A stretch of DNA of 64,000 bases from Bdellovibrio bacteriovorus. Its GTDB lineage: Bacteria; Bdellovibrionota; Bdellovibrionia; Bdellovibrionales; Bdellovibrionaceae. Of this stretch, positions 18,173 to 19,764 are shown in pieces. Made by a program: the position numbers and the translations under genes. The stretch spans positions 2,017,890 to 2,081,889 of the forward strand of contig NZ_LUKD01000001.1 in the NCBI RefSeq assembly GCF_001592745.1, written 5' to 3'. The notes below the pieces were generated by a model that worked only from the letters and a program-made list of their open reading frames with translations, was not told where the DNA came from and ran no database searches. The first letter of the stretch is position 1; each line of letters starts with the position of its first letter.

Positions 18173-18184
18173 GAGGACCTTTCT
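18160..18184. terminator. terminator overlapping the SRPBCC stop codon
   Basis: AGGTCCTC (18160-18167) pairs with GAGGACCT (18173-18180), followed by TTCTTT. The TAA stop of the upstream gene lies in the loop. The convergent minus-strand gene ends at 18185, so the hairpin may serve both. Confidence 0.7.
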
Positions 18185-18553
18185 TTAGAAGCAGTTATAG
18201 CGCGGAGCTTTGCCGGATTCTTCGATAGAAGCGCAAGCCACGTGGCCTCGGCGAACGGTCACATCGTCAAACTGCTCTTCTGATTTCGGAGAAAATGACA
18301 GATAGAGCTCTTCGGCGATCTCACCAGTAATGCCGCCTTCTGAGCTCATGCAATAGACTTGTTTATTCTTATGAAGCGCACAAGACACATTCGCCGAAAC
18401 TAGAAGAACCCCATCGCCGGCATTTTGTGGAGACTCCATAGTTGCTAAGAATCCAAAAAGCAATCCGCCCTTAGCGGGATCTGTTATTTTCAGTTCGGCA
18501 TGGGCTTGAAGAGTCAGGACCAGGGTCGCGATAGTAAGTACGATCTTTTTCAT
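18185..18553 (-). CDS. small secreted hypothetical protein
   Basis: The 122-residue product has a clear signal peptide (MKKIVLTIATLVLTLQAHA, cleavage after residue 19). The mature protein of about 100 residues has four cysteines, probably forming two disulfides, and alternating hydrophobic segments. A GGAG ribosome-binding site precedes the start. I do not recognise a family. A 240-nt gap with no evident gene follows toward 18794. Confidence 0.7.
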   Translation of the reverse strand: MKKIVLTIATLVLTLQAHAELKITDPAKGGLLFGFLATMESPQNAGDGVLLVSANVSCALHKNKQVYCMSSEGGITGEIAEELYLSFSPKSEEQFDDVTVRRGHVACASIEESGKAPRYNCF

Positions 18554-18793
18554 AAAAAACTCCTTATTTATAAATGTTCATGTGGTTTCTATAGCTACAC
18601 CCGTGCCATTCAGGGGGCTGTTTGCGAAATTTTCCAAAACACCTTTCAGTGTCAGAAGCTTAGACAGTCTTGAAAATAGCGCTCCAAGAATGTCATTATG
18701 AAAAGGCGATGTGATGGAACAGTTTTTCCAGTCATCAAGAATATTTGCGGCATGATTTCGAAAAGTTCTGCATACTTTTATTAAGAGGTTCTT

Positions 18794-19195
18794 ATGAACG
18801 CGTTAAGGTATTGGATGGCAGGGGTTTTGGTGAGTTTGTCTTGCTCGATGGCGTCGGCCGCCACTCCGGCATTGTGCGGTGGTCTTCAGTTACCCAAAGA
18901 GGCTTATAAGGCCTGCTTGAAAAGCCAGCTCCCTTTAGATGGTTTGTATGCTTGTGCGAAAAGCTTTAATCGCAATGATGTGATCGCCCAGTGTGTTTCC
19001 AGCAATCAACCGACGGATGTCATTTATACCTGTGGGCAGATCAATCATATTGAAACCCAAAAGAAATGCCTTGCGGGAAATAAAACTTCCGAACAGCTCG
19101 TGAAATGCATGATCTCTAATAACAACATCAAACGATTAGATTCTTGTGTTGGGAATTCATCCGCAAAATCAGTGAGTCCTGAGGGCCAGCACTAA
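18794..19195 (+). CDS. secreted cysteine-repeat protein (13-residue period)
   Basis: The 133-residue product has a signal peptide (cleavage near ASA, residue 22) and a mature region in which eight cysteines recur every 13 residues, with one 12-residue spacing: CGGLQ.., CLKSQ.., CAKSF.., CVSSN.., CGQIN.., CLAGN.., CMISN.., CVGNS... Within a unit the pattern is C-x-x-S/G, then an acidic residue and a hydrophobic pair, suggesting short helices stacked as a disulfide-bonded solenoid. I know no named family with this spacing. It is a single gene with AAGAGG upstream and a strong terminator behind. Confidence 0.75.
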   Translation: MNALRYWMAGVLVSLSCSMASAATPALCGGLQLPKEAYKACLKSQLPLDGLYACAKSFNRNDVIAQCVSSNQPTDVIYTCGQINHIETQKKCLAGNKTSEQLVKCMISNNNIKRLDSCVGNSSAKSVSPEGQH

Positions 19196-19196
19196 T

Positions 19197-19230
19197 AAAA
19201 AAAGCGCTGCTTTGTGGGCAGCGCTTTTAA
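19197..19230. terminator. strong bidirectional terminator
   Basis: AAAAGCGCTGC and GCAGCGCTTTT form an 11-bp perfect stem with a seven-base loop, with A-rich and T-rich flanks. It separates the cysteine-repeat gene from the convergent gene ending at 19252. Confidence 0.92.
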
Positions 19231-19251: not shown

Positions 19252-19764
19252 CTACTTCGAACTTTCTTTGATGAACAAAGTCAGATAGTGGCGAACCATG
19301 TATTCCAGTTTCACAGGCAAACCTTGGTACATCCACACAAGCTCGCCGAATGCACCCCATTTCGCTTCAACAATATGCTCGTCCATAACGTTCGTCGCTG
19401 TTTGTTGAGCTTCTGTAGAACCCGGAGTTGGAATGTAGTTCGTTCCAATAAAATTGAAACGAATGCTGATTTGTCCCGGCGCTTTTAAAGAGAAGATCAT
19501 TTTAAAGCCGTTACGGAACAGCATGAAGTCGGCGTGAGTTTTCGCGATACCGTAAATTTTGATACGACCCAAAGCCGAAGGTTTCAACTCGTTGAATGAA
19601 GTGGAGGCGTCAACAAATTCAGTTTTTAGCTCTAGCAGGAATTGAATGCTTTCGTTGATCAGAATTTTTTCTGAATCAAATCCGAAGCTCATATCCACGA
19701 GGCCAGACTCTTCCATTTGTTGTTCAGCTTTCACAAGTTCTTTAATCCAGCTGATTTTTTCCAT
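19252..19764 (-). CDS. hypothetical cytoplasmic protein
   Basis: The 170-residue protein starts with GGGAGG ten bases upstream. It has no signal peptide or membrane segment and reads as an N-terminal helix followed by an alpha/beta domain with several beta-strands (GRIKIYGIAKTHADFMLF). The composition is normal for a conserved cytosolic protein. I recognise no family, and the neighbours give no clue because it is flanked by terminators on both sides. Confidence 0.72.
   Translation of the reverse strand: MEKISWIKELVKAEQQMEESGLVDMSFGFDSEKILINESIQFLLELKTEFVDASTSFNELKPSALGRIKIYGIAKTHADFMLFRNGFKMIFSLKAPGQISIRFNFIGTNYIPTPGSTEAQQTATNVMDEHIVEAKWGAFGELVWMYQGLPVKLEYMVRHYLTLFIKESSK

Follow-up and report, generated by a model that had tools for sequence, protein, structure and literature searches.

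Helicobacter HcpB and HcpC are secreted proteins in which tandem alpha/alpha motifs form a superhelix cross-linked by disulfides; as set out in the portions of PMC3851747 that describe this group, Sel1-like repeats are usually 36 to 38 residues long and the Hcp disulfide ties each repeat, at its end, to the beginning of the one that follows. Within a 64,000-nucleotide stretch of Bdellovibrio bacteriovorus DNA (here, the window), we describe a gene whose 133-amino acid product has regularly spaced cysteines and appears, from its profile matches, to belong, as a divergent member, to a family of repeat proteins that has no name in the libraries searched.

The gene (positions 18794 to 19195 of the window, forward strand, stop codon included) begins with ATG preceded by AAGAGG, and an intrinsic-terminator-like stem, readable from the other strand too, lies past its end (19200 to 19228, forward strand). 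The first 22 residues (18794 to 18859) have, by eye, the look of a signal peptide with cleavage likely after A20-S21-A22, and the protein is probably exported, presumably via Sec. Cysteines are at residues 17, 28, 41, 54, 67, 80, 92, 105, and 118, the first of which is within the signal peptide, leaving eight in the mature protein at gaps of 13, 13, 13, 13, 12, 13, and 13. An earlier note on this DNA had described this spacing in an exported mature protein, and both the residue positions and a chance calculation bear it out. For eight cysteines placed at random in 110 residues, the probability that all seven gaps lie within 1 of one common period (any from 4 to 15) is at most 2.8e-6, and the probability that six are equal with the seventh within 1 is 1.9e-8; the regular spacing is far beyond chance.

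Pairwise searches with the window protein give no match in the 23 other genomes of the genus, nor in the genome contigs, viral contigs, phages, or plasmids searched. Relatives were found with cysteine codon patterns and with profiles. Five Cys codons at period 39, used as a DNA pattern, match two exported proteins of the genus (L005 in genome G004 and L011 in G014), in each of which eight Cys are exactly 13 residues apart. The corresponding eight-codon pattern matches L097 (Halobacteriovoraceae), which has twelve Cys at such spacing. The eight-codon pattern (TGY) is present in at least 118 stretches of the genome contigs, and all 118 loci were translated in six frames; among the matches listed, L097 is by eye the only relative, and most of the others are low-complexity or simple tandem repeats and were rejected. 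Scanning 120 viral-contig loci with the same pattern against profile A3 gave a best E of 0.036, and none was accepted.

Profiles A3 (5 array rows) and A9 (9 rows) were both built with the window protein left out. Over 368 genomes of the phylum, A3 matches 22 (threshold E ≤ 0.001) and A9 matches 26; three of each contain only hits that are not arrays on reading (G012, G109, and G174 for A3; G109, G132, and G354 for A9), such that arrays are present in 23 of the 368 by A9. Profile searches in related genomes, a check recommended by the earlier note, find relatives, and the window protein is itself recovered by A3 (E 2.6e-4, 23 bits) and, in its own genome, by A9 (E 1.8e-5, 26.5 bits). Three of the 24 genomes in its genus are matched by A9 (G000, G004, and G014), as are 16 of 329 in a deltaproteobacterial phylum, which we take to be Myxococcota or close to it, and 1 of 349 in the Pseudomonas phylum. 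There are no A9 matches in 396 genomes of the Streptomyces phylum, an empty result that alone is not proof of absence. These three outside phyla are those of L094 (Deltaproteobacteria bacterium isolate Zod_Metabat.76), of a Pseudomonas viridiflava record, and of a Streptomyces griseofuscus record, respectively.

The earlier note knew of no family with this spacing, and the libraries agree: no Pfam or NCBIfam model scores over its cut-off for the window protein or up to nine same-phylum relatives scanned, and PHROGs has no entry for the window protein. For ten array proteins of the deltaproteobacterial phylum and the Pseudomonas phylum, the sole Pfam match over cut-off is to CBM_14, on 20 residues of L370 (24.3 versus 22.1 bits); no stretch passes alone, and we discount it as a coincidence of Cys spacing. 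No paper on such a family was found by title or start of abstract; most subscription journals lie outside that search, and a description may exist in print.

The relatives change the definition of the repeat. The count covers 36 proteins that we read, namely that of the window, 24 others of its phylum, 10 of the deltaproteobacterial phylum, and 1 of the Pseudomonas phylum; mature starts were chosen by eye and Cys pairs were counted from the C-terminal end. Left out of this count were L192 and L356 (no repeat or in-frame stops), L204 and L206 (a single pair), L197, L198, and L358 (peptidase-like, with one hairpin), L191/L361 and L354 (array cut at one end), G069:C2:399457, and 6 of the 16 matching deltaproteobacterial-phylum genomes. 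Each array has 2 to 10 counted hairpins, and the 176 C-C intervals within hairpins are 13 residues in 138 cases, 14 in 27, and 12 in 11. Linkers to the next hairpin range from 12 to 26, mostly 12 to 15 in the window's phylum and mostly 17 to 18 in the deltaproteobacterial phylum; the length is 13 in the window protein and elsewhere 17, 18, 20, and up to 26. Some arrays are patterned, with G203a alternating 13 and 17, G203b alternating 14 and 12, and G177 repeating 13, 13, 13, 15. The mature Cys count is even in 35 of the 36 proteins (the exception has 17), a rule spanning proteins of 6 to 20 Cys, which are related and thus do not represent 36 independent events. The residues most common around 13-spaced hairpins are V/I at -3, A at -1, the first Cys, F at +4, G/S at +6, L at +11, the second Cys, and then L/I/V. 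Arrays with 13-residue linkers and those with 17/18-residue linkers match each other in profile-profile comparison (98.0%, E 1.6e-13), partly driven by the Cys residues.

The repeat unit, as the relatives show, is a two-Cys hairpin in which C-x12-C is nearly fixed and the linker is free. The one-Cys, 13-residue period proposed as the unit in the earlier note does not hold across the relatives, and is seen in the special case where linker and hairpin are equally long. That note had also named loss of the spacing among relatives as evidence against its reading, and half of this applies, in that alternate spacings are lost and the remaining ones are kept. The repeat length is 26 residues in the window protein (hairpin 13 plus linker 13) and mostly 26 to 31 in relatives.

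A hairpin PSSM that excludes the genome under test in each case, applied to 13-residue intervals, separates hairpins from linkers. Its scores are higher for C-x12-C intervals than for 13-residue linker intervals in all 17 proteins holding both (means of 11.1 to 29.8 versus -7.8 to 0.7), a set to which the window protein does not belong. The contrast is weaker in the window protein, where hairpin 1 (C28-x12-C41, positions 18875 to 18916), hairpin 2 (C54-x12-C67, 18953 to 18994), and hairpin 4 (C105-x12-C118, 19106 to 19147), all on the forward strand, score 6.13, 6.73, and -2.44 (its lowest scored hairpin), and the linkers score -1.77, 0.84, and -0.88. Hairpin 3 (C80-x11-C92, 19031 to 19069, forward strand) is one residue short and, being 12-spaced, falls outside the scoring. 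The hairpin C-C distances of 13, 13, 12, and 13 are nonetheless within the family's 12 to 14, and the eight mature Cys are even in number. The divergence of this protein shows in its short third hairpin, a fourth hairpin scoring below zero, and a small hairpin/linker contrast, as well as in the lack of a pairwise match in the 23 other genomes of the genus.

This small contrast, together with a pairwise identity of about 20% and the absence of a pairwise relative in the genus, genome contigs, or viral contigs, would also fit a chance or convergent exported protein that is not homologous and matches the profiles mainly through its Cys residues. We regard this as unlikely, given the E values at which profiles built without the protein match it and a mature Cys number equal to that of proteins in G004, G279, and others. 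Moreover, the window protein scores 25.0 bits against A3, whereas shuffles with the Cys held fixed average 7.85 and 3 of 2,000 reach 25.0; the residues between the Cys therefore carry family signal, and membership of the array family is the reading that we prefer.

Several other features of these and similar proteins were observed. A long extra N-terminal part precedes the array in several deltaproteobacterial members, and a C-x3-C-x3-C-x16/17-C module starts seven array proteins (L011, L180, L182, L183, L185, L186, and L205); the same module lies ahead of an unrelated Cys-rich repeat in L036. Genome G069 has a tandem pair of array genes (L341:5438-6160, reverse strand), both with 14-spaced hairpins. 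L030 (G014:C188) is a 586-aa protein that has at its end another kind of 13-residue Cys repeat, marked by a G-V-E motif, and is not among the A3 or A9 hits. The long Cys-rich repeat proteins L039, L091, L093, L119, and L153 are matched by the eight-Cys pattern and appear by eye to be unrelated to the arrays; three of the five are from Micrarchaeota or ainarchaeum records.

Structure prediction, also recommended in the earlier note, was performed with AlphaFold for the mature window protein together with three L097 segments. The window protein is predicted to have eight helices at approximately 13-residue steps (3-7, 12-20, 25-34, 38-47, 51-58, 63-71, 76-85, and 89-96 of 110) each holding one Cys. 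Confidence is modest: the best model has a mean pLDDT of 62.9 and a pTM of 0.53, and the other four models are at 43 to 45. The model of L097, the longest regular relative, folded alone, is poor (pLDDT 42.8) and was set aside. With Foldseek there is no match at E ≤ 0.001 (best E 5.1), the best VIA-align Z is 3.9, to a designed assembly of helical repeats, and no fold was assigned; PDB sequence searches with A3, A11, and L365 return nothing below E 0.8.

The earlier note had proposed a disulfide-laddered helical solenoid, and its two parts fare differently. The helical solenoid is supported by the predicted structure with modest confidence, but a continuous ladder is disfavored, because the two-Cys hairpins and variable linkers of the relatives make one disulfide per hairpin the more likely arrangement; the nearly fixed C-x12-C and the even Cys counts support pairing within hairpins. 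As these disulfides are predicted, and one Cys per helix in the AlphaFold model could line one face of the solenoid, the Cys residues might alternatively stay reduced and bind metal, such as Cu(I) or Zn, or store thiols. We consider this distinctly improbable, since the signal peptide suggests export to an oxidizing compartment, and pairing predicts both the even counts and the nearly fixed Cys pairs with free linkers, neither of which a metal-lined channel would need.

The window gene is an accessory gene, recently gained or elsewhere lost. It is part of a segment of approximately 1 kb (positions 18173 to 19176) that G005 lacks, although no other genome has flanking DNA so similar; the two flanks are 89.9% and 94.9% identical there by blastn, with 22 bp between them. 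The segment also includes a divergently oriented ORF for a 122-aa exported protein (18185 to 18553, reverse strand), which has no Pfam match. A neighboring gene for a 170-aa protein (19252 to 19764, reverse strand) is present in 23 of the 24 genus genomes; its surroundings vary among the other 22 genomes that have it, and none has the array gene at that site. We note that the region downstream of this 170-aa gene differs between species, in the manner of an insertion hotspot.

Array neighborhoods at other loci bear on a further explanation, in which a secreted HExxH peptidase with one such hairpin is inhibited or otherwise partnered by the arrays. A peptidase-like ORF of this type (L005:1956-2855, reverse strand) adjoins the array gene in G004, and proteins resembling it in G109, G174, and G132 have one profile-matched C-x12-C hairpin. 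However, by eye such a peptidase is beside only 1 of 19 array regions, none adjoins the window gene, and all-against-all blastp of the neighbors at the 19 loci shows no widely common family besides the array, the exceptions being three close relatives and a few two-member pairs; we find a peptidase partnership very improbable. In the exported HExxH peptidase-like proteins at L197:1006-1917, L198:823-1950, and L358:1006-1911, a single C-x12-C hairpin accounts for the profile match.

Among these readings, we think it probable that the window protein is a secreted alpha-alpha solenoid of two-helix hairpins, each stapled by a disulfide within the hairpin. The protein would be exported by Sec and its Cys residues oxidized in the periplasm, and it would consist of four helix-turn-helix hairpins in tandem, each about 26 residues long. 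The first-helix Cys ([VI]-x-x-C) would face the second-helix Cys 13 residues on (L-x-C-[LIV]), giving one disulfide per hairpin after export, most likely C28-C41, C54-C67, C80-C92, and C105-C118. Residues beside the Cys would stack the hairpins into a short, rigid alpha-alpha solenoid, a compact scaffold that resists proteases and, with the fast-changing residues on its exposed surface, would bind a partner outside the cytoplasm; array length would change as entire hairpins are gained or lost. A binding role is suggested by the repeat architecture, the patchy distribution, the changes in array length, and the long N-terminal part of several deltaproteobacterial members. More tentatively, and with doubt, we raise the idea that the Cx12C array represents a superfamily of exported repeat proteins, as yet unnamed, in Bdellovibrionota and the deltaproteobacterial phylum (probably Myxococcota), with alpha-alpha repeats among the shortest known (26 residues). 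It would evolve by gain and loss of stapled hairpins and provide a modular surface for binding, directed at other cells or employed inside them, as in surviving and binding in the prey periplasm.

A lone odd ORF thus becomes part of a repeat family that can be defined by one simple rule: hairpin length is fixed, the linker is free, and the Cys are even in number. The family is absent from the Pfam and NCBIfam copies searched, and the rule forecasts the four bonds named above. A natural helical scaffold that is small, stapled, and variable in length would be of interest to protein designers and in the study of predatory-bacterial secretomes.

Several described families resemble the array in part and differ from it in other respects. 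The helix-turn-helix of DUF4476 (PF14771), [IV]xx[IV]xxxFxFExxKL, is spaced by eye like the VxxCxxxFxFDxDKLxC of the arrays, and the best hhalign alignment pairs the two; the match is not significant, with a probability of 0.7% (P 0.078), or 0.3% for the set with mostly 17/18-residue linkers, and was rejected. In six genomes that have arrays, no match to the DUF4476 Pfam model rises above cut-off, and the DUF4476 set A10 gives E 0.0025 to a cytochrome trimer in a PDB sequence search, with no stretch passing alone. The Cin1 repeat of Venturia inaequalis (PF20738) is likewise a Cys-rich tandem repeat and matches 21 to 24 residues of two deltaproteobacterial arrays at 20.5 and 21.2 bits; these scores are below the 27-bit cut-off, the window protein has no match, and Cin1 was set aside. 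The nearest analogue is Hcp, with alpha/alpha repeats and disulfides as in the window protein, where both are predicted, but the repeat here is 26 residues (often 30 to 31 in relatives), not the 36 to 38 given for Sel1-like repeats in those portions of PMC3851747. No Sel1 family in Pfam matches the window protein or eight array relatives scanned at E ≤ 1, and repeat length and profile tests together place the window protein outside the Sel1-like repeat/Hcp family. In CHCH (twin Cx9C) proteins, a helical hairpin is pinned by two inter-helix disulfides, with two Cys in each helix that have nine residues between them. The window protein would share with these a disulfide-pinned helical hairpin, but with Cx12C and one Cys per predicted helix.
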